In this document: positions 5,176 to 63,602 of the stretch, piece by piece
Position numbering within the stretch: the stretch's first letter is position 1
Layout: the number at the start of each line of letters is the position of its first letter
DNA from: Burkholderiaceae bacterium
GTDB taxonomy: Bacteria; Pseudomonadota; Gammaproteobacteria; Burkholderiales; Burkholderiaceae_C
Direction of reading: 5' to 3'
Assembly (NCBI GenBank): GCA_026125795.1
Contig: JAHCKM010000003.1
Coordinates: 682,001 to 746,000 of the forward strand
Length of the DNA: 64,000 nucleotides
Position numbers and translations under genes: made by a program
The notes under the pieces: generated by a model
Database searches by the model: none
Told to the model about the DNA's origin: nothing
What the model saw: the letters and a program-made list of their open reading frames with translations, nothing else

Positions 5176-5177
5176 GA

Positions 5178-8171: not shown

Positions 8172-8194
8172 GTGTCCTCGGTGAGTCCTTGGCT

Positions 8195-9766: not shown

Positions 9767-9793
9767 GATGGTGTCTCTCGGGGGCCGATCATA

Positions 9794-9809: not shown

Positions 9810-9910
9810 CAGCAAGCAAACGAACTATCCGCAATCGGCACCTCGTGCGACGCCCGGAGGCAGCAGGTGCACCGTGATAACCACGCGTGAACGAGGGATT
9901 GATGGGGGTG

Positions 9911-9938
9911 CTTGCCCTATCTGGACAGATATTGCAAG
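9911..9938. promoter_or_regulatory. 28-bp palindrome, candidate IclR-family operator
   Basis: Two 14-base arms, CTTGCCCTATCTGG and ACAGATATTGCAAG, are inverted repeats matching at 11 of 14 positions, including CTTGC/GCAAG at the ends and TATCTG/CAGATA inside. The site lies 45 bases before the Bug gene start and about 145 before the divergent ThDP gene. The nearest regulator is the IclR protein encoded two genes on, which makes it the first candidate to bind here (inference). Confidence 0.5.
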
Positions 9939-9982
9939 AATCCCGTAAAGTGGCAACGCAATCACATCACCGGAGGACACGC

Positions 9983-47804: not shown

Positions 47805-48601
47805 CGATCCGTCGCGGCTACGTTGACCTGCCGCACGGCCAGGTGCACTACGCCGAATGCGGCCACGCCGGTGCACCGGCCGTGCTGTTGCTGCACCAGA
47901 CACCGCGCAGCTGGGCCGAGTACCGCGCGGTGCTGCCGCTGATCGGCGCGCGGTATCGGGCGCTGGCGATGGACACCGCCGGCTTCGGCAACTCGGATCC
48001 GTTGCCGGGGCCGGCATCGATCGAAGAATGGGCTGGTGTGGCGGCGCGTTTGCTGGGCGCGCTCGGCATCGCGCAGACCCATGTCGTGGGCCATCACACC
48101 GGCGGCGTCATCGCGGTGGAACTGGCAGCACGCCACGCGCCGCGGGTGCGCTCGCTGGTGCTGTCGTCCACGCCGTACACCGACGAGCCGTTTCGCCGCG
48201 CGCGCGCCGAGCGTCCGCCGATCGACGCGGTCCCGGCGAGCGAGGACGGCGAGCATCTGGCGCGGTTGTGGCGCCAGCGCCAGGCGTTCTACCCCGCCGG
48301 GCGGCCCGAACTGCTGCAGGCGTTCGTCGCCGACGCGTTGAAGGTGCAGGGCGATCTCGAGGCCGGTCATCGCGCCGTGGCGACGTACCGGATGGAGGAG
48401 CGCATCGGTGCCATCGGGCAACCCACGTTGGTGATCCGCGCCGCCGACGATCCGTTTTCCGCGCCGCACGCGGCGGATTGGCTGCAACACCTGCCGCAGG
48501 CGCGGCTCGTCGACATCGCGGGCGGCATGGTGCCGCTGCCCGATCAGTTGCCCGAGGCGTTCGCACGGGCCGTGATCGGATTTCTCGACACGCTGCGTTA
48601 G
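47801..48601 (+). CDS. alpha/beta-hydrolase-fold protein lacking the catalytic residues
   Basis: A 266-residue alpha/beta fold protein. The nucleophile elbow, normally GxSxG, reads GHHTG (residues 97-101), placing His99 where Ser should be. The usual catalytic His near the end (GH in the final loop) is also absent: the sequence reads IAGGMVPLPDQLPEAF. The Asp-containing LVIRAADDPF is present. So it is probably not an ordinary esterase; it could be a divergent enzyme or binding protein. It is translationally coupled to the dehydrogenase; its stop overlaps the convergent marR stop. Confidence 0.85.
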   Translation: MTIRRGYVDLPHGQVHYAECGHAGAPAVLLLHQTPRSWAEYRAVLPLIGARYRALAMDTAGFGNSDPLPGPASIEEWAGVAARLLGALGIAQTHVVGHHTGGVIAVELAARHAPRVRSLVLSSTPYTDEPFRRARAERPPIDAVPASEDGEHLARLWRQRQAFYPAGRPELLQAFVADALKVQGDLEAGHRAVATYRMEERIGAIGQPTLVIRAADDPFSAPHAADWLQHLPQARLVDIAGGMVPLPDQLPEAFARAVIGFLDTLR

Positions 48602-49077
48602 TCGTCCGCCGATTCGACCGTCGGCGACGACCGGTGCAGCTCGATCAGCTTGCGCAACGTGGCCTTCAGGTCTTCGGACCGTTGCCGGCCAAAGGGTTCC
48701 AGCACCCGGCGCTCATGCTCCTGCGCCTGTGGAATCAGCTGGGACACCAGCTGCGTGCCGGCGGGGGTGATGCGCACCAGCGTGACGCGGCGGTCGCCGC
48801 CGCTGGGCAGGCGCTCGACGAGGCCGCGCGCCTGCATGCGGTCGAGCACGCGGGTCACGGTCGGCTGCTTCATCGTCGTGATCTGCGCCAGCTGCCCGAT
48901 GTTGATCGGCTCGCTGCCGGCCAGCGACGCCAGCACTCGCCACTCGGAGACGGTGAACCCCTGCGCGGTGACAACGAGGTGGAACTCTGCGGAGATCAAC
49001 CGGCTCGCCTGCGCCAGCAGCGCCGGCAGGTAGTCGTCGACGAAGTGGGGCTCGGCGCGTCGCGCTTTGGTGGGCAT
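48598..49077 (-). CDS. MarR-family transcriptional regulator
   Basis: A 159-residue winged-helix repressor. The recognition helix region is NIGQLAQITTMKQPTVTRVLDRMQARGLVER (in two parts) and the wing GGDRRVTLVRIT. The ATG at 49077 gives the family length. It is divergent from the iorA operon and convergent with the hydrolase gene (stops share 48598-48601). It probably represses the 49236 operon by binding near 49146-49175, released by an aromatic or CoA-ester ligand (inference). Confidence 0.88.
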   Translation of the reverse strand: MPTKARRAEPHFVDDYLPALLAQASRLISAEFHLVVTAQGFTVSEWRVLASLAGSEPINIGQLAQITTMKQPTVTRVLDRMQARGLVERLPSGGDRRVTLVRITPAGTQLVSQLIPQAQEHERRVLEPFGRQRSEDLKATLRKLIELHRSSPTVESADD

Positions 49078-49152
49078 CGGCGCGATTGTGCTGCCCACGG
49101 GCTGATCCCGACATGCCCGGCCGGCTCGGCGCAAAACGCTTGACGTATGAAT

Positions 49153-49166
49153 TTGCATATGTTCAA
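49153..49166. promoter_or_regulatory. candidate MarR operator in an AT-rich divergent promoter
   Basis: TTG-CATATG-TTCAA is an imperfect 14-bp palindrome centred on CATATG. It lies in a short AT-rich island, between TTGACG (49140-49145, plus) and TTTACA (49174-49169, minus), which could be the two -35 boxes. MarR sites commonly overlap divergent promoters in this way. Confidence 0.5.
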
Positions 49167-49235
49167 CTGTAAATCATCGCGCGGGCCGCAACCGCAACCC
49201 GCCGCGCGGCACGCACCCGCGTGCGAAGGGGCACG

Positions 49236-51395
49236 ATGGCAGAGCGCTCGTTCGTCGAAGAGGTCAAGAAGCTGCGGCTCGGCGCCGGCGAGGTGTTCCG
49301 GGGCGAGGGCATCCTGGCGGTGACCAAGGCGCTGCTGGAGTCGGGCGTCGGGTATGTTTCCGGCTACCAGGGTGCGCCGATCTCGCACCTGATGGATGTG
49401 CTGGCCGACGCACAGGACATCCTGGCCGAGCAGGGCATCCGCTTCGAGAACAGCGCAAGCGAGGCCACCGCCGCGGCGACGCTGGCGGCATCGGTCAACT
49501 ACCCGCTGCGCGGCGCCGCCACCTTCAAGTCGACGGTCGGCACCAACGTCGCATCGGATGCGCTGGCCAACCTGGCCTCGGGCGGCGTCACCGGCGGTGC
49601 GCTGATCGTGGTGGGCGAGGACTACGGCGAGGGCTCGTCGATCATGCAGGAGCGCGGCCACGCCTTTGCGATGAAGTCGCAGATCTGGCTGCTCGACCCG
49701 CGGCCCAACCTGCCTTCGATCGTGCAGGCGGTCAAGCAGGGCTTCGCGCTGTCAGAGGCCAGCCGCACGCCGGTGATGCTGCAGCTGCGCATCCGCGCCT
49801 GCCATGTGCACGGCGAGTTCATCGCGTCCGACAACGTCAAGCCCGCATTCACCGTGCGCGATGCGCTGCACCACCCGCAGCGCGACACCGGCCGCATCGT
49901 GCTGCCACCGGCGAGCTTCGTACACGAGCAGGAGAAGATCAAGGATCGCTGGCCCGCGGCCGTGCGCTTCATCGAGCAGCACGGGCTCAACGAGTTCTTC
50001 TCCGAGGCGGCCGACGACGTCGGCATCGTCGTGCAGGGCGGCAACTACAACACGGTCATTCGCGTGCTGTGCAACCTCGGCCTGGCGGACGTCTACGGCA
50101 ACACGCGCATCCCGCTGTACGTGATGAACGTTGCCTATCCGGTGATTCCCGGCGAGGTGCTGCGCTTTTGCTCGGGCAAGCGCGCGGTGCTGATGATCGA
50201 GGAAGGGCAGCCCAACTTCATCGAGCAGAACGTCGCCACCATCCTCCGCCAGGCCGGGTGCGGCACCGCGCTGCACGGCAAGGACATGCTGCCGATGGCC
50301 GGCGAGTACACCGCGGCCGAGATGTTGAAGGGCACGCGCGCGTTCCTCGAACGTTATGGTCGCGTGCAGCCGGCCCTCTCTGCGGCGCGCACCGCAGCCA
50401 GAAGCGCGGTGATCCCGCTCAAGCCGCTGTCCGAAAGCGTCAACGCGCGGCCCCCCGGCTTTTGCACCGGCTGCCCGGAGCGGCCGATCTTCACCGCGAT
50501 GAAGCTGGTCGAGCGCGAGCTGGGGCCCCACCACGTCAGCGCCGACATCGGCTGCCATCTGTTCTCGATCCTGCCGCCGTTCAACATCGGTAACACCACG
50601 ATGGGCTATGGGCTCGGCGCGGCCGGCGCCGCGGCGCTCAACACGGCCAATGGTGCTCCGAGCGGAAAGCGCGCGATCAGCGTGATGGGCGACGGCGGCT
50701 TCTGGCACAACGGCCTGACCAGCGGCATCGCCAACGCGGTGTTCAACCGCAGCGACAACCTGACCATCGTGGTCGACAACAGCTACACGTCGGCCACCGG
50801 CGGGCAGGACATCCTGTCGTCCAGCGCGCACAACGCCACCCGCAGCACCGGTCATGCGATCGAGTCTGCGGTGCGCGGCGTCGGCGTCAGCTGGGTGCGC
50901 ACGATGCGCCGGACCTACGACGTGGCAGGCATGCGTGACGCGCTGAGGGAGGCGCTGACCACGCGCGAGCAGGGCCCCAAGGTGCTGATCGCGCAAAGCG
51001 AATGCATGCTCAACAAGCAGCGCCGCGAAAAGCCGCAGCAGCGCCAGGCGGTGGCGGCGGGAAAGCGCGTCGTGCGCGAGCGCTTCGGCGTCGATGCCGA
51101 CACTTGCACCGGAGACCACTCCTGCATCCGGCTGTCGGGCTGCCCGTCGCTGTCGGTCAAGCCCAACCCGGATCCGCTGCGCACCGATCCGGTGGCCACA
51201 GTGCTCGACTCGTGCGTCGGCTGCGGCTTGTGCGGCGAGGTGTCGCACGCGGCCGTGTTGTGCCCGTCGTTCTACAAGGCGCAGATCGTCAGCAACCCCA
51301 CGGCCTGGGATCGGATGCGCCAGCGCGTGCGTGGCGCGGTGATCGGCTGGCTGCAACGGCGCGATGCGCGGCAACGCGCGCGCCACGCGTTCTGA
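49236..51395 (+). CDS. iorA: indolepyruvate ferredoxin oxidoreductase alpha-like subunit
   Basis: A 719-residue subunit of the 2-oxoacid:ferredoxin oxidoreductase family. The pyrimidine domain starts GEGILAVTKALLESGVGYVSGYQGAPISHLMD (two parts); the ThDP motif is GDGGFWHNGLTSGIANAVFNRSDN (two parts). The C-terminus carries iron-sulfur cysteines: CTGDHSC, SGCPS and CVGCGLC...LCP. It decarboxylates an arylpyruvate-type acid to an acyl-CoA with IorB. The ATG at 49236 follows AAGGGGC; an upstream GTG (49221) is an alternative. Confidence 0.88.
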   Translation: MAERSFVEEVKKLRLGAGEVFRGEGILAVTKALLESGVGYVSGYQGAPISHLMDVLADAQDILAEQGIRFENSASEATAAATLAASVNYPLRGAATFKSTVGTNVASDALANLASGGVTGGALIVVGEDYGEGSSIMQERGHAFAMKSQIWLLDPRPNLPSIVQAVKQGFALSEASRTPVMLQLRIRACHVHGEFIASDNVKPAFTVRDALHHPQRDTGRIVLPPASFVHEQEKIKDRWPAAVRFIEQHGLNEFFSEAADDVGIVVQGGNYNTVIRVLCNLGLADVYGNTRIPLYVMNVAYPVIPGEVLRFCSGKRAVLMIEEGQPNFIEQNVATILRQAGCGTALHGKDMLPMAGEYTAAEMLKGTRAFLERYGRVQPALSAARTAARSAVIPLKPLSESVNARPPGFCTGCPERPIFTAMKLVERELGPHHVSADIGCHLFSILPPFNIGNTTMGYGLGAAGAAALNTANGAPSGKRAISVMGDGGFWHNGLTSGIANAVFNRSDNLTIVVDNSYTSATGGQDILSSSAHNATRSTGHAIESAVRGVGVSWVRTMRRTYDVAGMRDALREALTTREQGPKVLIAQSECMLNKQRREKPQQRQAVAAGKRVVRERFGVDADTCTGDHSCIRLSGCPSLSVKPNPDPLRTDPVATVLDSCVGCGLCGEVSHAAVLCPSFYKAQIVSNPTAWDRMRQRVRGAVIGWLQRRDARQRARHAF

Positions 51396-51403
51396 GAGCA
51401 ACG

Positions 51404-52909
51404 ATGGCCGGCGTGCAACCGATCAAGATCGCGGTCCTCGCGATGGGCGGCGAGGGCGGCGGTGTGCTGGCCGACTGGATCGTCGACCTCGGCGAGCACA
51501 ACGGCCACATCGCGCAGACCACCTCGGTGCCCGGCGTCGCGCAGCGCACCGGCGCCACGATCTACTACGTGGAGCTGTACCCGCGCGCGCAAGCCGAACG
51601 CGACGGCGGCCTGCCGGTGCTGGCGTTGATGCCGCTGCCCGGCGACGTCGACGTGGTGCTTGCCTCCGAGCTGATGGAGGCCGGGCGGGCCGTGCAGCGC
51701 GGCCTGGTGACGCCCGAGCGCACCACGCTGATCGCCTCGACGCACCGCGTGTACAGCATCGCCGAGAAGACCGCCATGGGCGACGGCCGCGTCGACAGCG
51801 AGCAGCTGATCGGGCACGCGCAGGCCGCGGCCAAACGTTTCGTGCGCTTCGACATGGCGCAGGCCGCCGAGGACGCCGGCAGCGTGATCAGCGCCGTGCT
51901 GTTCGGCGCACTGGCCGGCACCGGCGTGCTGCCGTTCTCGCGTGCGCAGTTCGAGGCCACGATCGAGCGCGGCGGCGTCGGCGTGAAGCCCAGCCTTAAG
52001 GCGTTTGGCGCGGCCTACGGGCGCGCGATGGCTGACGATGGCTCCGATCGGCCGCCAGCCGCACCCAGCCCCGTCATCGCTCCAGGCGCCGTGCGCGAGG
52101 AGCGCGTGCGTGGCGTGCTGGAGCGCATCGACGGCAGCTTCCCGGTCGAGGCGCGCCATGTGCTGATCGAAGGCGTGCGCCGGCTGATCGATTACCAGGA
52201 TCCGGCCTACGCCGAGCTCTACCTGGATCGCCTGGCCCGCATCGCCCAGCTGCCCGCGCAAGGCGAGCCGCTGCTGCAGGAAACGGCCCGCCACCTCGCG
52301 CTGTGGATGAGCTACGAGGACACGATCCGGGTCGCCGAGTTGAAGACGCGCGGCACGCGTTTTGCACGCGTGCGCGACGAGGTACGCGCGCGCGACGACC
52401 AGGTGCTCGCGATCAACGAGTTCATGCACCCGCGGCTGGAAGAGATCTGCGACACGCTGCCCGCAGGCCTGGGCCGTTGGCTCGCGGGCTCCGGCTGGCC
52501 GCGCCGTGTGGTCGAGCGTTTTGCGCGTCGGGGCCGGGTGGTGCCCACGAGTTCGCTGCGCGGCTTTCTGATGCTGTTTGCGCTGGCCGGGCTGAAGCGC
52601 TGGCGCCGCGGCACGCTGCGTTTTGCGGTCGAGACGCGGCGCATCGAGCAGTGGCTCGAGCAGATCGTGCGCAGCGCGGCAACCAACCCTCAGCTTGCCG
52701 TGGAGCTCGCGCGGTGCCAACGCCTGGTCAAGGGCTACAGCGACACGCACGCGCGCGGCTGGCACAACTTTGAAACCTTGATGAGCGCCGCACAGCGCGC
52801 CGGATCCCAGCTGGCGCCGGCCACGCTGCGTGAGCTGCGCGATGCCGCATTGGCCGACGAGCAAGGCCATGCGCTGCGCAGTGCGCTGACGCATCACGCT
52901 CTGGCCTGA
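51404..52909 (+). CDS. iorB: indolepyruvate oxidoreductase beta-like subunit
   Basis: A 501-residue partner of the alpha subunit. Residues 1-200 are the gamma-type domain (MGGEGGGVLADWIVDLGEHNG and TTSVPGVAQRTGATIYYVEL); the remainder is the DUF6537 region common in fused IorB proteins of aerobic bacteria. The ATG is 9 bases after the iorA stop. The pair probably passes electrons to a ferredoxin or directly to the operon's redox chain; the acceptor is not evident. Confidence 0.87.
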   Translation: MAGVQPIKIAVLAMGGEGGGVLADWIVDLGEHNGHIAQTTSVPGVAQRTGATIYYVELYPRAQAERDGGLPVLALMPLPGDVDVVLASELMEAGRAVQRGLVTPERTTLIASTHRVYSIAEKTAMGDGRVDSEQLIGHAQAAAKRFVRFDMAQAAEDAGSVISAVLFGALAGTGVLPFSRAQFEATIERGGVGVKPSLKAFGAAYGRAMADDGSDRPPAAPSPVIAPGAVREERVRGVLERIDGSFPVEARHVLIEGVRRLIDYQDPAYAELYLDRLARIAQLPAQGEPLLQETARHLALWMSYEDTIRVAELKTRGTRFARVRDEVRARDDQVLAINEFMHPRLEEICDTLPAGLGRWLAGSGWPRRVVERFARRGRVVPTSSLRGFLMLFALAGLKRWRRGTLRFAVETRRIEQWLEQIVRSAATNPQLAVELARCQRLVKGYSDTHARGWHNFETLMSAAQRAGSQLAPATLRELRDAALADEQGHALRSALTHHALA

Positions 52910-52913
52910 TCCC

Positions 52914-53906
52914 ATGTCGAACACCCCAGCCCTGCTGCAGCTGCGCGTGACCGAGGCGCGCGAACTGAACCCGCTGATCCGCCTGTTGCGCCTGCGTGCC
53001 GACGATGGTGCAGCGCTGCCGGGCTACAGTGCCGGCGCGCACCTGCGCGTGCGCGTGGAGCTGCCGGACGGCAGCCTCGACTGGCGCCACTATTCGCTGG
53101 TGAACCTCGCGCCGCATGCGGACGCCGGAGCGGATCCCGGCGAGTACGTGATCGCGGTGCGCCGCGACGACGACGGACGCGGCGGCTCACGTTTCATGCA
53201 CCAGCGCGTGCAGACCGGACAGCTGCTCACCATCGAAGCGCCGAAGAACGAGTTTCCCCTTCGCGAACACGGCGGCTGCGCGGTGCTGGTGGCGGGCGGC
53301 ATCGGCATCACGCCGCTGGCCAGCATGGCGGCGCAACGCGTCGCGCTCGGCGCGCCGGTGCGCCTGCACTACGCCGGCCGCACGCGCGAGCTGATGGCGT
53401 TCGTGCCCGAGCTGCAGCAGCTGCTGGGCGAGCACCTGCGGCTGCACGTCGATGCCGAAGCAGGCGCTCCGTTGAACGTCGAGGCGCTGCTCGACGCCTG
53501 CTCACCCGAGGACCAGCTCTATGTCTGCGGGCCCAAGCCGATGCTCGACACGCTGCTCGCGCGCACGCAGGCGCGCGGCTGGACGCGCGAGCGTGTGCAC
53601 TTTGAGGTGTTCAACGCGCCGGCGGTGGGGTCGGCCGAGCATGCTTTCGAGGTGGTGCTGGCACAAAGCGGCCGCAGCGTCGCGGTGCCGGCCGATCGTT
53701 CGATCCTCGATTGCCTGATTGACGCCGGCGTCGATCCGCTGTTTGACTGCAAGCGCGGCGAGTGCGGCGTCTGCGGCACGCCGGTGATCGAAGGCGAGAT
53801 CGACCACCGCGACTATGTGCTGAGCGCGCTCGAGAAGCGCGAGGGCGGCGTGATGCAGATCTGCGTGTCGCGCTGCAAGGGCACGCGCCTGGTGCTGGAC
53901 CTGTGA
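52914..53906 (+). CDS. VanB-type flavin/[2Fe-2S] reductase
   Basis: A 330-residue class IA-like reductase: an FAD/FMN domain (RHYSLVN-type: DWRHYSLVNLAP), an NAD domain (VLVAGGIGITPLASMA) and a C-terminal plant-type [2Fe-2S] domain with Cys ligands in CKRGECGVCGTP and the last in VSRC. It would feed electrons from NADH to the Rieske oxygenases that follow. Only one reductase is seen for two oxygenases, so it may serve both. Confidence 0.9.
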   Translation: MSNTPALLQLRVTEARELNPLIRLLRLRADDGAALPGYSAGAHLRVRVELPDGSLDWRHYSLVNLAPHADAGADPGEYVIAVRRDDDGRGGSRFMHQRVQTGQLLTIEAPKNEFPLREHGGCAVLVAGGIGITPLASMAAQRVALGAPVRLHYAGRTRELMAFVPELQQLLGEHLRLHVDAEAGAPLNVEALLDACSPEDQLYVCGPKPMLDTLLARTQARGWTRERVHFEVFNAPAVGSAEHAFEVVLAQSGRSVAVPADRSILDCLIDAGVDPLFDCKRGECGVCGTPVIEGEIDHRDYVLSALEKREGGVMQICVSRCKGTRLVLDL

Positions 53907-53920
53907 TCGGAAGGGATGCC

Positions 53921-55252
53921 ATGAGCAAGTACCGAGGCCAACCCGATGCCGTGCGCGCGCTGGTGCGCGACACCGAGGTGCACAAGGACCTCTACGTCGA
54001 TCCCGAGCTGTTCGAGCTCGAGATGGAGCACCTGTTCGCCAACACCTGGGTCTACGTCGGCCATGCCAGCCAGGTGCCGAACAAGAGCGACTACTACACC
54101 ACCACGGTGGGCAACCAGCCGGTGGTGATGGTGCGCCACACCGACGGCAGCGTGAAGGTGCTGTACAACCGCTGCCCGCACAAGGGCACCAAGGTGGCCG
54201 GCGAGGTGCACGGCAATGCCGGCCGCTTCTTCCGCTGCCCGTATCACGCTTGGACGTTCAAGACCGACGGCAGCCTGCTGGCGGTGCCGCTGAAGAAGGG
54301 CTACGACAACACCGGCTTCGAGAGCTGCGAGGCCAGCAAGGGCATGGCGCCGGTGGGCGCGGTGCACGTCTATCGCGACTTCGTGTTCTGCCGCCTGAAT
54401 CCGCAGGGAATCGCCTTCGAGGAGTTCTTCGGCGAGTCGCTGTCCACGCTCGACAACATGGTCGATCGTTCGCCTGAAGGCAAGCTCGAGGTCGCCGGTG
54501 GCGTGCTGCGCTACATGCACCGCTGTAACTGGAAGATGCTGGTCGACAACCAGACCGATACCTGCCACCCGATGGTGGCGCACGAGTCGTCGGCCGGCAC
54601 CGCCGTGCGCGTGTGGGAGCAGTCGCCCCCCGGCACGCCCAAGCCGATGGCGGTGGAGCAGTTCGCGCCGTTCATCAGCTCGTACGAGTTCTTCGAGAAC
54701 ATGGGCATCCGCGTCTGGGGCAACGGCCACGGCCACACCGGCGTGGCCGACTCGATCCATGCCGCGTATTCGCCGGTGCCGGGCTACCAAGAGGCGATGG
54801 TGGCGGCGTACGGTGAGCAGCGCGCCAAGGAGATCCTCGGGCTCGTGCGCCACAACACCGTCTACTTCCCCAACATCATGGTCAAGGGGCCGATCCAGAC
54901 CTTGCGGCGCTTCCTGCCAATCGCGGCCGACAAGACGATGGTGGAATCGTGGACCTTCCGCCTCGTCGGCGCGCCCGATCTGCTGCTGGAGCGCACGCTG
55001 ATGTACAACCGCCTGATCAACGCGCCCACGTCGATGGTGGGCCACGACGACCTCGAGGTCTACGAGCGCGCGCAAGAGGGCTTGCATGCGCGCGGGCTCG
55101 ACTGGATCAACGTGGCCCGGCTCTACGACCCGGCCGAGCGCGGTCAGACCAACGTGGCCACCAACGGCACCAACGAGTGGCAGATGCGCAACCAGTTCCG
55201 CGCCTGGAGCCGCTACATGCTGGCGTCGATGCGCCAGGAGGCGGTGGCGTGA
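53921..55252 (+). CDS. Rieske ring-hydroxylating oxygenase, alpha subunit (first copy)
   Basis: A 443-residue catalytic subunit. The Rieske cluster ligands are Cys85, His87, Cys106 and His109 (CPHKG and CPYHAW). The mononuclear iron site is Asp213-x2-His216-x4-His221 in NQTDTCHPMVAH; the Asp213 equivalent also links the two centres. It adds molecular oxygen to an aromatic acid. A GGAAGGGA site precedes the ATG. The beta gene follows after a 70-base hairpin spacer. Confidence 0.92.
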   Translation: MSKYRGQPDAVRALVRDTEVHKDLYVDPELFELEMEHLFANTWVYVGHASQVPNKSDYYTTTVGNQPVVMVRHTDGSVKVLYNRCPHKGTKVAGEVHGNAGRFFRCPYHAWTFKTDGSLLAVPLKKGYDNTGFESCEASKGMAPVGAVHVYRDFVFCRLNPQGIAFEEFFGESLSTLDNMVDRSPEGKLEVAGGVLRYMHRCNWKMLVDNQTDTCHPMVAHESSAGTAVRVWEQSPPGTPKPMAVEQFAPFISSYEFFENMGIRVWGNGHGHTGVADSIHAAYSPVPGYQEAMVAAYGEQRAKEILGLVRHNTVYFPNIMVKGPIQTLRRFLPIAADKTMVESWTFRLVGAPDLLLERTLMYNRLINAPTSMVGHDDLEVYERAQEGLHARGLDWINVARLYDPAERGQTNVATNGTNEWQMRNQFRAWSRYMLASMRQEAVA

Positions 55253-55322
55253 TCACCGCACGGCCGTTCCGAAGGCGATGGCTCCCCCTCGGGGGGAAGG
55301 CCCGTAGGGCCAAGGGGGCGAC
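55253..55322. repeat. double-hairpin spacer between oxygenase alpha and beta genes
   Basis: Two stems, CCCCC/GGGGG (55284-55295) and GGCCC/GGGCC (55299-55311), lie directly before the beta gene's AAGGGGG ribosome site. It resembles other GC-extreme spacers in this window and may tune the ratio of subunits or protect mRNA ends. Confidence 0.5.
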
Positions 55323-55796
55323 ATGACCAACCAGGAGCTCATCGACTTCGTCTATGCCGAAGCGCGCTTGCTCGACGACCAGCGCTTCGACGAGTGGCTC
55401 GATCTGTTCACCGACGACGGCCACTACTGGATGCCGCTGGCGCCGGGCCAGCAGGATGCACGGTTGCACGCATCGCTGATGTACGAGGACAAGCTGCTGC
55501 TTCGCGTGCGCGTGGAGCGCCTGGGCGGCGCACGCACCTACTCGCAGCAGCCGCGCAGCCGCTGCCACCATCTGCTGCAGCAGCCGAGCGTGGAGAGCGC
55601 CGATCGTGATGCCGGTCGCTACACGGTGCGCACGCCGTTCCACTACGTCGAGACGCGGCTCGACGAGATGACGCTTTTTGCCGGCTGGGCCACGCACGAG
55701 CTGGTGGCGGTCGACGGCAAGCTGCGCATCCGGCTCAAGCGCGTCGACCTCGTCAACTGCGACGCGGCGTTCGGCAACATCAACCTGTTCATGTAA
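55323..55796 (+). CDS. Rieske ring-hydroxylating oxygenase, beta subunit (first copy)
   Basis: A 157-residue structural subunit of the SnoaL-like fold. Family features are FVYAEARLLDDQRFDEWLDLFTDDGHYWMP (two parts), MYEDKLLLRVRVERL and RTYSQQPRSRCHHLL. It forms an alpha3-beta3 hexamer with the preceding gene product. It ends 2 bases before the CoA ligase gene. Confidence 0.92.
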   Translation: MTNQELIDFVYAEARLLDDQRFDEWLDLFTDDGHYWMPLAPGQQDARLHASLMYEDKLLLRVRVERLGGARTYSQQPRSRCHHLLQQPSVESADRDAGRYTVRTPFHYVETRLDEMTLFAGWATHELVAVDGKLRIRLKRVDLVNCDAAFGNINLFM

Positions 55797-55798
55797 CG

Positions 55799-57433
55799 AT
55801 GACATCGGCCGGCGTCACCGTCGCCCAGGCGTTCGCGTCGTCGGCGCAGCGCTTTGGCGCGTTGCCGTTCCTGTGCGTGCTGCCCGAGACGGCCGATGTC
55901 TACGGCGTCCTGGCGGGCGAGATCTCGTATGCCGACATGCAGCGGCGCGTCGACGCCTTGCGCGCCGCGTATGCGGCCGCCGGCTACGGGCATGGCCATC
56001 GCGTGGGGCTGCTGCTGGAGAACCGGCCCGAGTTCTTCGTGCACTGGTTCGCGCTCAACGGCCTCGGCGTGTCGGTGGTGCCGATCAACGCGGAGCTGCG
56101 ATCGGCCGAGCTCGAGTACCTCGTGGGCCACTCGGAGATCGCGCTCGCGGTCGCGTCGGCCACGCGGCACGAGGCGCTGCATGCCGCCGCCGGCGCCGCG
56201 CGGCGCACGATGGCGGTGATGCGCGCGCACGACACGCCGCCGCCTGCGCCTTTCGTGGCCCCACGGGCCGACGCGCCGATCGGCATCCGCACCGAGTGCG
56301 CGCTGCTCTACACCTCGGGCACCACCGGCCGGCCCAAGGGCTGCATCCTGCCCAACCGCTACTACCTGCATGCCGGCGCCTGGTACGCCGCCATCGGCGG
56401 GCTGGCGCAGCTGCGCGAAGGTCAGGAGCGATTGCTGACGCCGCTGCCGCAGGTGCACATGAACGCGATGGCGTACTCGACGCTGGCAATGGTGATGACC
56501 GGCGGCTGCCTGATCGCGCTCGACCGTTTCCATCCCAAGACCTGGTGGCAGAGCGTGCGCGAGTCGCGTGCCACCGTTGTGCATTACCTCGGCGTGATGC
56601 CGGCGATGCTGATGAAGGCGCAAGCCGCTGCGCAGGACCGTGAACACGCGGTGCGCTTCGGCTTTGGCGCGGGTGTCGATCGCAGCCTGCATGCGGCCTT
56701 CGAGGCGCGCTTCGGGTTTCCGCTGCTCGAAGCGTGGGCGATGACCGAGACCGGTGCCGGCGCGGTGGTGATTGCCAACCGCGAGCCACGGCAGGTCGGC
56801 ACGAGCTGCTTCGGCCGCGAAGGCGCGGATGTCGAGGTGAAGCTGGTCGGCGAGAACGGTGAACCCGTCGGCATCGACGAGCCCGGCGAGCTGCTGGTGC
56901 GCCACGCGGGCAGCGACCCGCGCGACGGTTTCTTCGCCGGCTATCTGAAGGATCAGGCCGCGACCGACGAGGCCTGGGCCGGCGGCTGGTTCCACACCGG
57001 CGACATCGTGCGCCGAGGCGCCGAAGGGCAGCTGCACTTCATCGACCGGCGCAAGAACGTGATCCGCCGCAGCGGCGAGAACATCTCGGCGGTGGAGGTC
57101 GAGAGCGTGCTGCTGCAGCACCCGCGCGTCAAGGCGGCGGCGGTGGCGCCGGTGCCCGACGCGATGCGCGGCGACGAGGTGCTGGCATGCATCGTCGGCG
57201 ACGGCATCGCGGCCGATGCCGATGCGCGCCGCGCCGCCGCGGCCGATATCGTCGACTGGTGCCTGGCGCGCCTGGCGTACTACAAGGCGCCGGGCTACGT
57301 GGCCTTCGTCGATGCGCTGCCGCTCACCGCGTCGCAGAAGGTGCAGCGCGGCGAGCTGCGCGTGCTGGCGGCCGCGGTGGTCGGCCAGCCGCACTGCATC
57401 GACACCACGGCGATGAAGAAGAGGGCGACATGA
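55799..57433 (+). CDS. AMP-dependent acyl-CoA ligase
   Basis: A 544-residue adenylate-forming ligase. The phosphate loop is TSGTTGRPKGCILP, the adenine motif WAMTETGAG, the hinge HTGDIVRRGAEGQLHFIDRRKNVIRRSGENIS (two parts) and the C-terminal catalytic Lys is in TASQKVQRGEL. The branch is that of 'ATP-dependent acyl-CoA ligases' of aromatic or carnitine-type catabolism. It would activate a carboxylic intermediate for the thiolase-like/aldolase steps after it. Confidence 0.9.
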   Translation: MTSAGVTVAQAFASSAQRFGALPFLCVLPETADVYGVLAGEISYADMQRRVDALRAAYAAAGYGHGHRVGLLLENRPEFFVHWFALNGLGVSVVPINAELRSAELEYLVGHSEIALAVASATRHEALHAAAGAARRTMAVMRAHDTPPPAPFVAPRADAPIGIRTECALLYTSGTTGRPKGCILPNRYYLHAGAWYAAIGGLAQLREGQERLLTPLPQVHMNAMAYSTLAMVMTGGCLIALDRFHPKTWWQSVRESRATVVHYLGVMPAMLMKAQAAAQDREHAVRFGFGAGVDRSLHAAFEARFGFPLLEAWAMTETGAGAVVIANREPRQVGTSCFGREGADVEVKLVGENGEPVGIDEPGELLVRHAGSDPRDGFFAGYLKDQAATDEAWAGGWFHTGDIVRRGAEGQLHFIDRRKNVIRRSGENISAVEVESVLLQHPRVKAAAVAPVPDAMRGDEVLACIVGDGIAADADARRAAAADIVDWCLARLAYYKAPGYVAFVDALPLTASQKVQRGELRVLAAAVVGQPHCIDTTAMKKRAT

Positions 57434-57518
57434 GGCCCTGCTCGGCCGCTCCCGGACTCGCAGGGGCCTTGACAGGCCCGGGGGCCCGCACCGCAGTGCG
57501 GAGCACGGAGGTTCGTCG
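57434..57518. repeat. GC-extreme palindromic spacer
   Basis: Contains a GGCCCGGGGGCCC-type palindrome and a GCACCGCAGTGCGGAGC pair; it ends with the GGAGG ribosome site for the next gene. It is similar in style to the other intra-operon spacers. Confidence 0.4.
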
Positions 57519-58694
57519 ATGACGCGCGGTGGACGCATGTCGTACGAAGGCGTCGCGGTCGCCGTGCCGGTGACGGTGCCGTACGTGCGCTATTCGACGC
57601 ACAACGCGCACTGGTTCATCGGCCAGGCGCTGCACGCGCTGCTCGACGCGTCGCACCTGGCCAAGCAGCAGATCGACGGCCTCACCGTGAGCAGCTTCTC
57701 GCTCGCGCCCGACACGGCGGTGGGGGTCACGCAGCACATGGGCCTGTCGCCGCGCTGGCTCGATCACATCCCTACCGGGGGTGCGTCGGGCGTGATGGCG
57801 CTGCGGCGCGCGGCGCGCGCGGTGCAGGCGGGCGACGCCGACATCGTGGCCTGCGTGGCGGCCGACACCAACCATGTCGACTCGTTCCGTCTCACGCTCG
57901 GCTCGTTCAGCCAGTTTGCGCGCGACGCCAGCTACCCGTATGGCTCGGGTGGGCCGAACTCGATCTTCGCGTTCATCACCGCGAACTACATGCGCACATA
58001 TGGGGCCACGCGCGAAGACTTCGGCCGCATCGCGGTGGCCCAGCGCGCCAACGCGCTGAACAATCCGAATGCGCTGTTCAAGAAGCCGCTGACGCTCGAC
58101 GAATACATGGGAGCCCGGCCGATCGCCGAGCCGATCCACTTGTTCGACTGCGTGATGCCGTGTGCCGGCGCCGAGGCCTTTCTGGTGATGCGCGAGCCCA
58201 AGGCACGCGAGCTCGGATTGCCGCACGCGCTGGTGCGCGGCGCGATCGAGCGCCACAACGCCTATGCCGACGACCCGATCTTCGTGCGCGGCGGCTGGCG
58301 CGTGGACCGCGACGAGCTGTACGCGCAGGCCGACGCCACGCCGGCCGATGTCGACTTCGTGCAGACCTACGACGACTACCCGGTCATCGTGATGACGCAG
58401 TTCGAGGATCTGGGCTTCTGCGACAAGGGCAGCGGGCCCGCGTTCGTCCGCGCACAGACGCTGACGCACGACGGCACGTTCCCCAACAACACGAGCGGCG
58501 GGCAGCTGTCGGTGGGCCAGGCCGGCGCGGCCGGTGGCTTTCTCGGCATGACCGAAGCGATCCGCCAGCTCACCGGGCAAGCCGGTGCGCGCGCGGTGAA
58601 GGACGCCAAGCTCGGCCTCGTCACCGGCTTCGGCATGGTCACCTACGACCGCTGCCTGTGCACCGGCGCCGTCATTCTCGGAACAGCGCCATGA
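57519..58694 (+). CDS. thiolase-like protein (SCP-x/Ltp2 branch) lacking thiolase catalytic residues
   Basis: A 391-residue thiolase-fold protein. The loop that normally holds the nucleophilic Cys reads TGGASGVMAL (86-95) with no Cys. The usual catalytic His of GHPxG is replaced: NTSGGQLSVGQAGAAGG has Gln334. The motif TYDDYP (283-288) followed by EDLGFC matches the YDCFT...LEDLGFC of Ltp2-type lipid-transfer/aldolase proteins. With a DUF35 protein next door, a retro-aldolase role is plausible. The ATG at 57519 has GGAGG upstream. The stop overlaps the next gene. Confidence 0.87.
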   Translation: MTRGGRMSYEGVAVAVPVTVPYVRYSTHNAHWFIGQALHALLDASHLAKQQIDGLTVSSFSLAPDTAVGVTQHMGLSPRWLDHIPTGGASGVMALRRAARAVQAGDADIVACVAADTNHVDSFRLTLGSFSQFARDASYPYGSGGPNSIFAFITANYMRTYGATREDFGRIAVAQRANALNNPNALFKKPLTLDEYMGARPIAEPIHLFDCVMPCAGAEAFLVMREPKARELGLPHALVRGAIERHNAYADDPIFVRGGWRVDRDELYAQADATPADVDFVQTYDDYPVIVMTQFEDLGFCDKGSGPAFVRAQTLTHDGTFPNNTSGGQLSVGQAGAAGGFLGMTEAIRQLTGQAGARAVKDAKLGLVTGFGMVTYDRCLCTGAVILGTAP

Positions 58695-59944
58695 CGATGC
58701 CGCTGATGAAACCCAAGCGCAAGAACCCGGTCTTGCGCACGCGGCAGATCAACCTGCCGCCGTGGGGGCGCAGCCGCGTGGCGCTCGGCATGACGGCAGC
58801 CGCGGCCGAGGGCCGCTTCGAGCTGCAGGTGTGCGGCGACTGCAGCGCCGTGCAATACCCGCCGCGCGAGGCGTGCCACCGTTGCCTGTCGGCACGCCTG
58901 CAATGGCGCGCACAAACGGGTGAAGGCACCTTGCTCGGCCTCACCACCTTGCACCACAGCAACGACCTGTTCTTCCGCGAGCGCCTGCCATGGCGTCTGG
59001 GGCTGGTGCACCTCGACGCCGGCCCGTCGCTGATGGTGCACGTGCACCGCGAGGTCGGCGACGCGCCGGCGCGCGTGCACGTCGGCGCGCGGCTCGACCG
59101 CGCCGGGCAGGCGGTGCTGATCGGATTTCCCCAACAAGGGAGCGAACACATGGCTGACGACCCGATGCTGCGCGAGATGACCAGCGACCCCAAGTTCCGC
59201 AAGGTGCTCGTCACTGACGGCAAGACCGCGGTCGGGCAGGCGATCGTGCACGCGCTGGTGAAGGCCGGTGCCGACATCGTCTGGGTCGGCCATGCCGAGC
59301 CGTGGAAGAAGCTGCCCGGCTTCGACGACATCACCGCGCTGCCGCAGGTCACGCTGGTGCCGCTGGACCTGACCAATGGCCGCTCGGTGGCCGAACTGGC
59401 CGGCGAGATCGGCGGCAAGGTCGACATCGTGATCAACAACGCCGAGGTGCACCGCGCGTTCGGCATCGCGGCGCGGCGCGGCACCGACGTGGCCAAGGCC
59501 GAGATGGACATCAATTACTTCGGCGCGCTGCGTCTGGCGCAGGAGTTCGGCCCGGCGCTCAAGGGCCGCTCGGCCGACGGCGTGACGCATGCCGCGGCGT
59601 GGGTCAACCTGCTGTCGATCTACGCGCTCTCCAACTTCCCGCCGCACGGCACGTTCTCCGCGTCTAAGGCCGCGGCCTATTCGCTGGCGCAGTGCCAGCG
59701 CGCCGAGATGCGGCCGGCCGGCATCCGCGTGATCAACGTGTTCCCCGGGCCGATCGACGACGAGTGGAATCAGAACCTGCCGCCGCCGAAGGTGGCGCCT
59801 GCCGCGCTCGCCAGTGCGATCGTCAAGGCGCTGCGCGATGGCGTGGAAGACGTCTACCCCGGCGACGTGGCGCAGGAGTGGCTCGAACGCTGGCGCGACA
59901 ACCCCAAGGTGCTCGAGCGCGAGCTCGCGGCAGGAGGCCAGTGA
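58691..59944 (+). CDS. DUF35 zinc-ribbon/OB-fold protein fused to a degenerate SDR
   Basis: A 417-residue fusion. Residues 1-150 are a DUF35 protein: zinc ribbon Cys48, 51, 62, 65 (CGDC...CHRC) plus an OB fold. From Met154 follows an SDR whose glycine motif is TDGKTAVG, whose NNAG motif is NNAE, and whose catalytic YxxxK is FSASK (Phe322). An AAGGGAG site (59136-59142) lies seven bases before an ATG at 59150, so the SDR may also be made alone. The DUF35 part should bind the thiolase-like protein encoded just before (overlap ATGA). Confidence 0.85.
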   Translation: MTMPLMKPKRKNPVLRTRQINLPPWGRSRVALGMTAAAAEGRFELQVCGDCSAVQYPPREACHRCLSARLQWRAQTGEGTLLGLTTLHHSNDLFFRERLPWRLGLVHLDAGPSLMVHVHREVGDAPARVHVGARLDRAGQAVLIGFPQQGSEHMADDPMLREMTSDPKFRKVLVTDGKTAVGQAIVHALVKAGADIVWVGHAEPWKKLPGFDDITALPQVTLVPLDLTNGRSVAELAGEIGGKVDIVINNAEVHRAFGIAARRGTDVAKAEMDINYFGALRLAQEFGPALKGRSADGVTHAAAWVNLLSIYALSNFPPHGTFSASKAAAYSLAQCQRAEMRPAGIRVINVFPGPIDDEWNQNLPPPKVAPAALASAIVKALRDGVEDVYPGDVAQEWLERWRDNPKVLERELAAGGQ

Positions 59945-59946
59945 CC

Positions 59947-60735
59947 ATGACCTCTCAAGTGCTCACCGGCCTCGTCGCGTCGCTCGCCAGCGGCCGCATT
60001 CGCGTGATCGACCTGACGCAGACGCTGACGCCCGACTTCCCGCAGATCGCGCTGCCCCCCGAGATGGGCCAGTGCTGGCCGTTTCGCATCGAGGAGGTCT
60101 CGCACTACGACGAGCGCGGGCCCGGCTGGTACTGGAACAACTTCTCCTGCGGCGAACACACCGGCACGCACTTCGACGCGCCGATCCACTGGATCTCGGG
60201 CCGTGACCTGCCCAACAATTCGGTGGACACCATTCCCGCGCAGCACTTCGTGGCGCCGGCCTGCGTCATCGATTGTTCCGAGCAGGCCAAGGCCGATCCG
60301 GACTACCTGCTCGGCGTGATCGACATCGAGGCGTTCGAGGCCAGGCACGGCCGCATTCCGGAAGGTGCATGGGTGCTGATGCGCACCGATTGGTCCAAAC
60401 GCAAGGACCCCGAGGCCTATCAGAACTTCGACGAGACCGGCCAGCACACGCCCGGCCCGAGCGCCGAGGCGGTGAAGTTCCTGGTCGAGCAGCGCGGCGT
60501 GCTCGGCTTCGGCTCCGAGGCCATCGGCACCGACGCCGGCCAGGGCTACCACCTGCGGCCGCCGTATCCGTGCCACTACTACATGCATGGCGCCGGCCGC
60601 TACGGTCTGCAGTGCCTGAGCAACCTCGACCTGCTGCCGCCCACCGGCGCGGTGCTGATCTGCCCGCCGCTGAAGATCGAGAAGGGCAGCGGCAGTCCGT
60701 TGCGTGTGCTGGCATTGGTGGAGCAGGGATCATGA
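59947..60735 (+). CDS. cyclase-family metal hydrolase (kynurenine formamidase fold)
   Basis: A 262-residue cyclase-family protein. The metal-binding motif HxGTHxDxPxH is exact: His71, His75, Asp77, His81 in EHTGTHFDAPIHW. Family members hydrolyse amides or lactones (for example N-formylkynurenine). In a pathway with indolepyruvate-like enzymes an amide or ring-opened product is possible. The ATG at 59947 or GTG at 59941 may start it; the stop overlaps the SDR gene by four bases. Confidence 0.88.
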   Translation: MTSQVLTGLVASLASGRIRVIDLTQTLTPDFPQIALPPEMGQCWPFRIEEVSHYDERGPGWYWNNFSCGEHTGTHFDAPIHWISGRDLPNNSVDTIPAQHFVAPACVIDCSEQAKADPDYLLGVIDIEAFEARHGRIPEGAWVLMRTDWSKRKDPEAYQNFDETGQHTPGPSAEAVKFLVEQRGVLGFGSEAIGTDAGQGYHLRPPYPCHYYMHGAGRYGLQCLSNLDLLPPTGAVLICPPLKIEKGSGSPLRVLALVEQGS

Positions 60736-61463
60736 GTATTGATCTCGACGTCGCAGTCGTCACCGGCGGCAGCGTCGGCATCGGCCGCGCGATATGCGAA
60801 GACCTGCTCGTGCGCGGCTACGAGGTGGTGTCGCTGGCGCGGCGCGCGAGCGGGATCGACCACGCGCGCATGCACGACATCGAGGTCGATCTGATGGACC
60901 GTGCCGCCACCGCGCAGGCAGTGCAGGAGCTGGCGCGGCGCTTTGCACTGACGACGGTGATTCACAACGCCGGCGTGATCCGGCCCGCGCTGCTGTCAGA
61001 GGTGCAGCTCGACGACCTGGGCGCGCTGGTGGAGCTGCACCTGGGCGCGGCGATCCAGCTCGTGCAGGCCGCACTGCCGGCGATGCGCCAGCGCAAGTTC
61101 GGCCGTGTGGTGCTGCTGTCGTCGCGCGCCGCGCTGGGCGCGCAGACGCGCACCAGCTATTCGGCCACCAAGGCCGGCATGCTCGGCATGGCGCGCACCT
61201 GGGCGCTGGAGCTGGCGGCCGACGGCATCACGGTCAACGTGGTGGCGCCGGGGCCGATCCACAGCGACATGTTCTATGACGTGATCCCGGCCGGCAGCGA
61301 GCGCGAGAAGAAGCTCGCCGCATCGATCCCGGTGCAGCGCATCGGCGAGCCGGCCGACGTGACGCGCGCCGTGGCGTTCTTTGCCGACCCGGCGGCGGGC
61401 TTCATCACCGGGCAGGTGCTGTACGTGTGCGGCGGCAGCAGCGTGGGAGGGCTCACGCTTTGA
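60732..61463 (+). CDS. SDR-family oxidoreductase
   Basis: A 243-residue classical SDR. TGGSVGIG binds the nucleotide; NAG is HNAGV; the triad is Ser in LLSSRAA, Tyr and Lys in YSATK. It resembles 3-oxoacyl-ACP reductase/3-hydroxyacyl dehydrogenases. In contrast with the SDR part of the fusion two genes upstream, its active site is complete. The stop overlaps the TTG start of the second oxygenase. Confidence 0.9.
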   Translation: MSIDLDVAVVTGGSVGIGRAICEDLLVRGYEVVSLARRASGIDHARMHDIEVDLMDRAATAQAVQELARRFALTTVIHNAGVIRPALLSEVQLDDLGALVELHLGAAIQLVQAALPAMRQRKFGRVVLLSSRAALGAQTRTSYSATKAGMLGMARTWALELAADGITVNVVAPGPIHSDMFYDVIPAGSEREKKLAASIPVQRIGEPADVTRAVAFFADPAAGFITGQVLYVCGGSSVGGLTL

Positions 61464-62767
61464 GCCACACGGCAAGCGACATCGCGGCGCTCGTGAAGGA
61501 CGATCGCGTGCACCGCGACGTGTATATCAGCCCCGAGCTGTTCGCGCTCGAGCAGCAACAATTCTTCGTGCACACCTGGCTCTACTACGGCCACACCAGC
61601 CAGGTGCCGAACGCCGGCGACTACTTCGCGCAGGACATCGCCGGCCGCCCGCTGGTCATGGTGCGCCAGAGCGACGGTGGCATCCGCGTGCTCTACAACC
61701 GCTGCGCGCACAAGGGATCGCGCCTCGTGAGCGACGAGAGCGGCAACGTGGGCCGCTTCTTCCGTTGCCCGTACCACGCCTGGACCTACAAGCTCGACGG
61801 TGCACCGCTCGCGGTGCCGATCAAGGCGGGCTACGAGGGCACGCGGCTGCACGAATGCGAATCGGGCCGCGGCATGAGCGCCGTGCCGCACGTGGCGGTG
61901 TATCGCGACTTCGTGTTCATCAAGCTCGGCGACGCCGGCCCCGATTTCGAGAGCTACTTCGGCGAGGCGCTGCGCGCGATCGACAACCTGGTCGATCGCT
62001 CGCCGGTGGGCAAGCTGCGCATCGAGGGCGGCGTGCTGCGCAACATCGTGCACTGCAACTGGAAGATGTACCTCGAGAACATCAACGACACGGTGCATCC
62101 ACCCTCGACGCACGAGTCGGCCACCGCAGCAGCGGGCCGGCTGTGGGAGGGCCAGCCCACCGATGCGCCGAAGCCGATGGCGATGGAGCAGATCCTGCCG
62201 TTCGCCGCCAGCTACGACTTCTTTGACCGCATGGGCGGTCGCGTCTATCCCAATGGCCACAGCCTGCTCGGCGTCAACTTCAGCATCCACTCGGGCTACG
62301 CCGCGTTGCCCGAGTACGAGGCCGCGATGCGCGCCGCGCACGGCGACGCACGCGCCGCCGAGATCCTGGAGCGCTCGCCGCAGAACGCGCTGTGCTTCCC
62401 GAGCCTGGCGCTCAAGGGCTCGCCGCAAGCCATCCGCGTGATCCGGCCGCTGGCGGTGGACCGCACGCTGATCGAGGCCTGGAGCTTCCGCGTCGAGGGC
62501 GCCCCTGACATCCTGTTCCAGCGCTCGCTCACCTACAACCGCCTCGTGTTCTCGCCGATGTCGGTGGTGGCGCACGACGACGTGCACCTGTTCGAAAGCA
62601 TCCAGCAGGGCCTGCGCGCCGACGGCAACGAATGGATCAGCCTGCACCGCGGCTTCGATGCTCGGGAGTTGGAGCAGAGCACGGCCACAGTCGGTGGCAC
62701 CAACGAGCTGTTGATGCGCAACCAGTTCCGTGCCTGGGTGAAGTTCATGACGTTGGGGATGATGTGA
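61460..62767 (+). CDS. Rieske ring-hydroxylating oxygenase, alpha subunit (second copy)
   Basis: A 435-residue catalytic subunit, paralogous to the 53921 gene. The Rieske ligands are Cys82, His84, Cys103, His106; the iron site is Asp210, His213, His218 (NINDTVHPPSTH). The TTG at 61460 is the likely start: a GGGAGGG site lies eight bases upstream, and the frame begins SHTASDIAALVKDDRVHRDVY (two parts), matching the first copy's start. An in-frame ATG at 61427 would overlap the previous gene by 37 bases. Confidence 0.9.
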   Translation: MSHTASDIAALVKDDRVHRDVYISPELFALEQQQFFVHTWLYYGHTSQVPNAGDYFAQDIAGRPLVMVRQSDGGIRVLYNRCAHKGSRLVSDESGNVGRFFRCPYHAWTYKLDGAPLAVPIKAGYEGTRLHECESGRGMSAVPHVAVYRDFVFIKLGDAGPDFESYFGEALRAIDNLVDRSPVGKLRIEGGVLRNIVHCNWKMYLENINDTVHPPSTHESATAAAGRLWEGQPTDAPKPMAMEQILPFAASYDFFDRMGGRVYPNGHSLLGVNFSIHSGYAALPEYEAAMRAAHGDARAAEILERSPQNALCFPSLALKGSPQAIRVIRPLAVDRTLIEAWSFRVEGAPDILFQRSLTYNRLVFSPMSVVAHDDVHLFESIQQGLRADGNEWISLHRGFDARELEQSTATVGGTNELLMRNQFRAWVKFMTLGMM

Positions 62768-63113: not shown

Positions 63114-63602
63114 ATGATCGACTCCACCATTGAGCGCGAGTTGAGCAATCTCATCGTGCACGAAGCCGCGCTCATCGACGCGCGCCGCTTCGATGAATGG
63201 CTCGCCCTGTTCGCCGACGATTGCCGCTACTGGATCCCGCTGCAAGGCGCCGCGCAGGCCGAAGACGCGCAGCACAACGCGCTGGCCGACGAGGACAAGC
63301 TCCTGCTGAAGCTGCGCGTCGAGCGCCTCAAGAGCCCCAAAGCGCATTCGCAGCACCCGCCGAGCCGCTGCCAGCACGTGCTGCAGCAGCCTCGTGTCGT
63401 ACAGGCCGATCTCGCAGCCGGAAGCTGCGAGTTGCACACACCCTTCATCTATGTCGAATCGCGCGGCGAGCAGCAGTTGATGCTCGCCGGCGTGGCGCGG
63501 CACCGGCTGGTGCGGCGCGAGGAGAGTTGGCGGATCGCGTTCAAGCGAGTCGATCTGCTCAATGCCGGCGCTGCGCTGCCGGCGATCCAGTTGTTCCCGT
63601 GA
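63114..63602 (+). CDS. Rieske ring-hydroxylating oxygenase, beta subunit (second copy)
   Basis: A 162-residue beta subunit. It has LIVHEAALIDARRFDEWLALFADDCRYWIP (two parts), ADEDKLLLKLRVERL and KAHSQHPPSRCQHVLQQP, aligned with the first beta subunit. The ATG at 63114 follows a GGGAG site. It would pair with the second alpha subunit, 346 bases upstream, and possibly also exchange with the first pair. Confidence 0.9.
   Translation: MIDSTIERELSNLIVHEAALIDARRFDEWLALFADDCRYWIPLQGAAQAEDAQHNALADEDKLLLKLRVERLKSPKAHSQHPPSRCQHVLQQPRVVQADLAAGSCELHTPFIYVESRGEQQLMLAGVARHRLVRREESWRIAFKRVDLLNAGAALPAIQLFP

Follow-up and report, generated by a model that had tools for sequence, protein, structure and literature searches.

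How the iad pathway of auxin degradation removes the side chain of its substrate is the question raised by a pair of overlapping genes in a 64,000-nucleotide stretch of a Burkholderiaceae genome (GCA_026125795.1, contig JAHCKM010000003.1, positions 682,001 to 746,000; hereafter the window), one for a thiolase-like protein and the other for a fusion of a DUF35 and a short-chain dehydrogenase/reductase (SDR) domain. Both the gene order and the relatives identify the pair as IadG and IadH, two proteins encoded by the known iad locus for degradation of the auxin indole-3-acetic acid. Co-directional genes stand behind a divergent regulator, and the order C-D-E-F-G-H-I-J with a MarR-family regulator was found at 48598-61463, the same gene order being present in fetched Variovorax loci such as L035 and being given by PMC12633357 and PMC10374108 (the latter with Variovorax gene identifiers). 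The Rieske alpha subunit at the IadD place matched the solved structures 9o71 (E 1.8e-188) and 7yls/8h2t (1e-186), with the next match at 1.4e-42, and 9o71 is IadDE of V. paradoxus CL014 by the name of its record. The published locus of V. paradoxus CL14/CL014 has the same order and gene families, but in the available text of PMC12633357 and PMC10374108 IadG and IadH are called ketothiolase and alcohol dehydrogenase by annotation only, and the passages covered contain no assay of the G-H step. A search of PDB sequences, first with IadG and then with IadH, turned up no close match. Our literature search found the loss of the acetic-acid side chain in the iad pathway assigned by annotation only, with no aldolase named for this step in the available texts, and nothing on dioxindole-3-acetyl-CoA, DOAA-CoA or a retro-aldol route to isatin. 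We consider it likely that IadG and the DUF35 part of IadH together form a retro-aldolase acting on a coenzyme A (CoA) thioester, a prediction drawn from residue, fold and neighbourhood comparisons, and the central step of the pathway seems mis-assigned as a thiolase reaction, the enzyme being probably a Sal-like retro-aldolase with a Tyr-Asp site.

The IadG open reading frame spans 57519-58694 (391 amino acids), within which the start at 57537 (385 amino acids) is favoured by the family alignment; residues are counted from the latter, and Tyr284 and Gln334 of an earlier note on this DNA correspond to Tyr278 and Gln328. The earlier note had described a nucleophile loop lacking Cys and a Gln replacing the catalytic His, and the alignment with solved relatives restored neither residue: Gly82 occupies the column of the nucleophilic Cys of 7yvy and BbsB, and Gln328 that of the His of the GHP motif in 7yvy, BbsB and 4u4e. 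The tyrosine said to be kept, Tyr278, aligns with the catalytic base of two side-chain aldolases, Tyr302 of Sal and Tyr294 of Ltp2 (residue roles from PMC12329534). Gln323 and Gln328 fall in the columns of Sal Gln347 and Gln352, and Arg194 in that of the CoA-binding Arg216 of Sal. The proton donors of these enzymes, Tyr344 of Ltp2 or Cys304 of Sal, are not present in IadG, which carries Gln328 and Asp280 instead, and because the donor differs IadG was filed as neither Ltp2 nor Sal. The exchange of the second tyrosine for Gln was correctly seen earlier but is not unique, being the same in the proteobacterial aldolase Sal; likewise the active site is altered as claimed, though what has actually changed is the position of Sal Cys304 and Ltp2 His296, which IadG fills with Asp280. 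The motif YDCFT given for Ltp2 has to be corrected, as PMC12329534 has YDHF for Ltp2, YDCY for Sal and YDCF for TbSLP.

Conservation was tabulated over 121 relatives, with two copies of the window's own gene left out. Tyr278-Asp279-Asp280-Tyr281, Gln323 and Gln328 were invariant in the relatives of at least 45% identity (91/91), which speaks against a chance pattern. Gly82 was kept in all 91 of these but equally in all 30 distant paralogues below 45% identity, and the missing Cys was therefore dropped as the key sign. The base tyrosine is also carried by 30/30 distant paralogues and hence is not specific to the aldolase group, whereas position 280 holds Asp in only 2 of them (Cys in 8, Ala in 9, Ser in 11) and position 328 is His in 23. 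By this alignment it is Gln328 and Asp280, not the missing Cys, that mark out the IadG group. As YDDY was included in the two patterns of the scan (at least 587 relatives, 80 kept) that supplied 80 of the 91 close loci, the fairer test is provided by the 24 loci obtained by protein or profile search (L126-L129, L155-L174), and YDDY was found in 24/24, four of which (L163-L166) are not of iad type; three further loci tabulated beside them for comparison, all distant paralogues, read YDDF, YDDF and YDCY. A clean score gap between orthologues and paralogues (2.7e-176 to 6.4e-88) was not retained, since it is partly filled by the four non-iad proteins at 1e-127 to 1e-135. At E 1e-60, matches to IadG occurred in 6/369 genomes of the class, and one of these is a 38% identical protein that carries the Sal motif YDCY. 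At 1e-100 they occurred in 9/300 genomes of the order and in 15/385 genomes from another class of the phylum, where four belong to the non-iad type.

The nearest solved structure to IadG by sequence, profile and fold was 9myr, the Sal-Shy(DUF35) aldolase. Foldseek with the IadG model (32-row alignment; predicted local distance difference test score, pLDDT, 87.5; predicted template modelling score 0.92) ranked 9myr first (E 6.2e-34, TMq 0.89) and BbsB 23rd; the comparison with Ltp2-ChsH2(DUF35) proposed earlier was made with the model of IadG alone and placed that complex third. A midpoint-rooted tree was built from 45 selected rows, with long branches flagged. The IadG clade (100/99) takes in as its neighbour a pair carrying YDDF and GGQIS-GQ (100/98), and Ltp2 and the thiolases stood elsewhere.

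Sal-Shy(DUF35), the bile-acid side-chain aldolase of Comamonas testosteroni (9myr; PMC12329534), shares with the IadG system a thiolase fold, a DUF35 partner, the lack of a Cys nucleophile, a Tyr base in YDxY, GGQLSxGQ with both Gln and an Arg for the CoA phosphates. The two differ in that identity is about 29% over the structural alignment, Sal Cys304, Gln161 and Tyr165 become Asp280, Pro140 and Phe144, the DUF35 zinc motif is C4 in IadH and C3H1 in Shy, and DUF35 is fused to an SDR in an auxin pathway rather than to a MaoC hydratase in a steroid pathway. The cholesterol side-chain aldolase Ltp2-ChsH2(DUF35) (6ok1) likewise shares the fold, the Tyr base, the DUF35 partner and a substrate with a tertiary hydroxyl, and here, too, DUF35 is attached to a domain with no catalytic role within its enzyme family (PMC11321319), but Tyr344 and His296 are exchanged for Gln328 and Asp280 and its position in the tree is another. 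BbsAB benzoylsuccinyl-CoA thiolase (7pxp) resembles IadG/IadH in combining a thiolase-fold subunit with a DUF35-type zinc subunit, whereas BbsB retains the Cys and His of true thiolases.

IadH (417 amino acids) begins with an ATG that overlaps the IadG stop codon, and the Pfam domains found on the two proteins (Thiolase_C_1, zf-ChsH2, OB_ChsH2_C and adh_short) bear out the DUF35-SDR fusion read earlier. Its zinc motif C-x2-C-x10-C-x2-C had all four Cys in 90/90 rows, and an IadH match accompanied IadG in 82/85 loci, the exceptions being L012, L013 (Sal-like) and L027, where the locus stops behind IadG. By analogy with the aldolases above, we expect DUF35 of IadH to bind IadG and to activate it. 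The SDR domain presents another picture. In the model (pLDDT 87.6) it has an SDR fold nearest to 5u4s, a structure solved with NADP, yet the three Gly of the cofactor motif TGxxxGxG occurred together in 0/90 rows (one of these, L011, has no residues there), the window protein reading TDGKTAVG. The Ser-Tyr-Lys triad was complete in 11/90 rows, and the catalytic Tyr position holds Phe in 69, Tyr in 15 and another residue or a gap in 6, with Phe322 in the window. By contrast, YxxxK and the three Gly were intact in 71/71 homologues of IadJ. Mean identity to the window protein over 88 rows was 0.824 in the SDR region and 0.755 in DUF35, and a decaying relic was not kept as an explanation, as the SDR region is the better conserved of the two. 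Judged from these alignments, the domain is a maintained pseudo-SDR whose motifs for hydride transfer are lost.

Two iad-type loci encode DUF35 alone, L127 (150 amino acids) and L162 (157 amino acids, confirmed by Pfam), and in L126 Pfam detected DUF35 and no SDR. L127 and L162 form one clade (100/94) and so count as one case, for which reason an idea that the short form had arisen twice was given up; the tree is compatible with an SDR lost or never possessed. L162 further contains an isatin hydrolase with the signatures and an SDR resembling IadJ. One might speculate that the pseudo-SDR ties IadG to the active SDR IadJ, for which the BbsCD dehydrogenase, which we take to pair an active with an inactive SDR subunit, is a possible parallel.

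The CoA thioester of dioxindole-3-acetic acid (DOAA) is a 3-hydroxyacyl-CoA with a tertiary carbinol, and thiolysis needs a 3-ketone; because the hydroxyl carbon is tertiary, DOAA-CoA cannot become a 3-ketoacyl-CoA. In the proposed mechanism IadF would activate DOAA to its CoA thioester, Tyr278 would remove the proton of the C3 hydroxyl, and the C3-CH2 bond would break to give isatin and the enolate of acetyl-CoA. Asp280, held by Gln323 and Gln328, would then give the proton back to form acetyl-CoA, while IadI would convert isatin by hydrolysis to isatinate, from which the route leads to anthranilate, and dioxindole would be a reduced side product formed from isatin. The reaction itself and the part of Asp280 in it are what we infer, as is the binding of DUF35 to IadG. 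The earlier reading is partly supported: a pair related to the aldolases, with altered active site and a DUF35 partner in an aromatic-type operon, fits the sequence and fold evidence, but the identity of the operon, the likely substrate and the loss of the SDR motifs had been missed.

IadI, the product of the gene that follows the pair, matched isatin hydrolase A at 5.3e-112, and the three isatin hydrolase signatures HxG[T/A]HxDxPxH, WxW/FxW and GLQC/GLAS, which stand for the metal site, the aromatic pocket and GLQC (PMC6117287), were all present in IadI and in 78/78 homologues (at least 85% coverage and 40% identity). Since the signatures mark IadI as an isatin hydrolase, isatin is the product to be expected from the step before it. 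Among nine genomes checked, a signature-bearing isatin hydrolase was found in three of the four with an iad-type IadG (G202, G244, G924) and in none of the five with only more distant YDD relatives. We take C8H7NO3 to be the formula of isatinic acid. Together with C7H7NO it is a likely intermediate ahead of anthranilate in the preprint PMC12633357, in whose available text deletion of iadF, iadG, iadH or iadI leads to accumulation of DOAA (C10H9NO4), the knockouts show that iadG and iadH are both needed, and C8H7NO2 (dioxindole) builds up in a strain expressing F-G-H and in the absence of iadI. Dioxindole, isatin and isatinic acid have all been reported from Variovorax cultures (PMC9613470).

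The accumulation of C8H7NO2 also speaks for the alternative that survives best, a reductive removal of the side chain straight to dioxindole with the IadH SDR as reductase and IadI acting later or on dioxindole. The good conservation of the SDR region and its kinship with the NADP-bound 5u4s favour it too, but the cofactor glycines and the catalytic triad are lost as described, two iad-type loci have DUF35 only (for one of the two an isatin hydrolase with the signatures was found), and the signatures of IadI are those of an isatin hydrolase. We also know of no ordinary mechanism that would give dioxindole by C3-CH2 cleavage of a 3-hydroxyacyl-CoA, and we regard this route as improbable. Still less probable is that IadG is of the aldolase type but acts on another CoA substrate, such as a ring-opened DOAA-CoA whose lactam has first been hydrolysed by IadI; the DOAA that accumulates on iadI deletion would suit this order, but IadI carries the isatin hydrolase signatures, and since C8H7NO2 accumulates without IadI (PMC12633357), cleavage can precede it. 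Scarcely credible is the annotation itself, an ordinary ketothiolase (EC 2.3.1.16) with an alcohol dehydrogenase, for although these names are used in PMC12633357 and 18 NCBIfam models for thiolases, acetyltransferases or lipid-transfer proteins match IadG, none past its own cut-off, the absent Cys and His speak against an ordinary thiolase and, as BbsB retains both, against a DUF35-containing thiolase of the BbsAB type as well, the beta carbon of DOAA bears a tertiary alcohol and no ketone, and the SDR cofactor motif of IadH is lost.

Several observations weigh against the retro-aldolase that we prefer. The second-best Foldseek match, between Sal and Ltp2, was 4u4e, a putative thiolase, and IadG with the YDDF pair joins the Sal clade at a weak 86/75 in the midpoint-rooted tree. 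The Sal variants C304H, C304S and C304A had undetectable activity (PMC12329534), and therefore Asp280 as proton donor is a prediction and not an equivalence; moreover, the proposed oxyanion-hole residue of Sal, Gln161, is Pro140 in IadG. Genome G120 (94% complete, 6% contamination) has IadG, but the isatin hydrolase signature was not found in it. Finally, the formula of isatin, C8H5NO2, was not found in the available text of PMC12633357, whose metabolite C8H7NO2 has two hydrogens more than isatin, which makes it necessary to postulate that cells reduce isatin.

Related genes were also seen outside iad loci. The four non-iad proteins (L163, L164, L165, L166) are 41-47% identical to IadG and carry YDDYP and GGQLSCGQ beside a free-standing DUF35 protein of 136-140 amino acids, and their neighbours include no iad genes beyond weak acyl-CoA ligase or SDR similarity, L163 adjoining a family III CoA-transferase. 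The pair that joins IadG in the tree (L124 and L125, with the same IadG-like genes as L102 and L103) has YDDF and GGQISAGQ, again beside a free-standing DUF35; an enoyl-CoA hydratase-like gene adjoins in L124, and L125 has a similar-looking reading frame, judged by look alone. Genome G1248 has two IadG genes (L172, L173), each beside a DUF35-SDR fusion, with isatin hydrolase-like matches nearby. The genome of the window itself has 13 further IadG matches, two of them in one reading frame, all paralogues at 28-39% identity. The seven that were aligned (L002-L008) have Gly at the nucleophile position, and the names thiolase or acetyl-CoA acetyltransferase may therefore often be wrong for such paralogues.

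Table 1. Genes of the iad region and residues or domains discussed, in window coordinates.
Feature	Position	Strand	Remarks
MarR-family regulator	48598..49158	-	divergent from iadA; best solved matches 7kki, 7kfo (~2e-60)
IadA and IadB, indolepyruvate:ferredoxin oxidoreductase (IOR)-like subunits	49236..52909	+	names from literature
IOR-alpha (IadA)	49236-51395	+	
IOR-beta (IadB)	51404-52909	+	
IadC, IadD and IadE, reductase and Rieske oxygenase block	52914..55796	+	
IadC, ferredoxin reductase	52914-53906	+	
IadD, Rieske alpha	53921-55252	+	best PDB match 9o71, then 7yls/8h2t
IadE, Rieske beta	55323-55796	+	
IadF, acyl-CoA ligase	55799..57433	+	expected to make dioxindole-3-acetyl-CoA; role proposed in PMC12633357
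IadG, thiolase-fold protein, proposed dioxindole-3-acetyl-CoA retro-aldolase	57537..58694	+	alternative start 57519
Gly82, at thiolase nucleophilic Cys position	57780..57782	+	alignment with solved relatives
Tyr278-Asp279-Asp280-Tyr281 motif	58368..58379	+	alignment with Sal, Ltp2
Gln323 to Gln328 (QLSVGQ)	58503..58520	+	aligned with Sal Gln347 and Gln352
IadH, DUF35-SDR fusion	58691..59944	+	start overlaps IadG stop
DUF35 of IadH: zinc ribbon (Cys48, 51, 62, 65) and OB fold	58775..59140	+	Pfam zf-ChsH2, OB_ChsH2_C
SDR-like domain of IadH, having lost the Gly motif (TDGKT) and the catalytic Tyr (FSASK)	59198..59941	+	
IadI, cyclase-family hydrolase / isatin hydrolase (HTGTHFDAPIH, WYW, GLQC)	59947..60735	+	
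IadJ, SDR with intact catalytic motifs	60732..61463	+	
Second Rieske alpha	61430-62767	+	
Second Rieske beta	63114-63602	+	

The remaining genes of the region are listed in Table 1. By its position the MarR-family gene appears to be IadR-like. IadA and IadB open the operon, although in Variovorax anthranilate formation was restored by the nine-gene region C-K2 (PMC12633357); they might act on isatinate, an arylglyoxylate. The second Rieske alpha subunit is about as near to the solved IadD as is the first, their matches to 7yls being at 9.8e-179 and 1e-186, and many Variovorax loci likewise have a second Rieske pair. Past the window, a segment of the same contig (L130, contig positions 744000-760000; genes at 1637-10557 within it) encodes a solute-binding protein of the branched-chain type, whose NCBIfam match stays below the cut-off, two reading frames resembling ABC permeases by look alone, a CoA ligase above the cut-off of PRK06155 and a protein of the salicylyl-CoA 5-hydroxylase type above that of PRK08255, suggesting further CoA-dependent breakdown of anthranilate by an anthraniloyl-CoA route.

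More tentatively, and with rather more doubt than attaches to the retro-aldolase itself, the Tyr-Asp pair may be a third catalytic solution among thiolase-fold aldolases. The YDD branch would then have auxin side-chain removal as its first recognised job, the first outside steroid catabolism in the literature searched, and would extend to the proteins with a free-standing DUF35, the pseudo-SDR being kept perhaps to tie the aldolase to IadJ. If the prediction is true, the aldolase family reaches beyond steroids, and a retro-aldol step would simply explain the isatin hydrolase gene that follows. It would also be a warning that the residues needed for acetyl-CoA acetyltransferase activity may be missing from many proteins that bear this name. 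The iad locus is being transferred between root bacteria for plant growth promotion (PMC12633357), and its central C-C cleavage step is therefore worth knowing.

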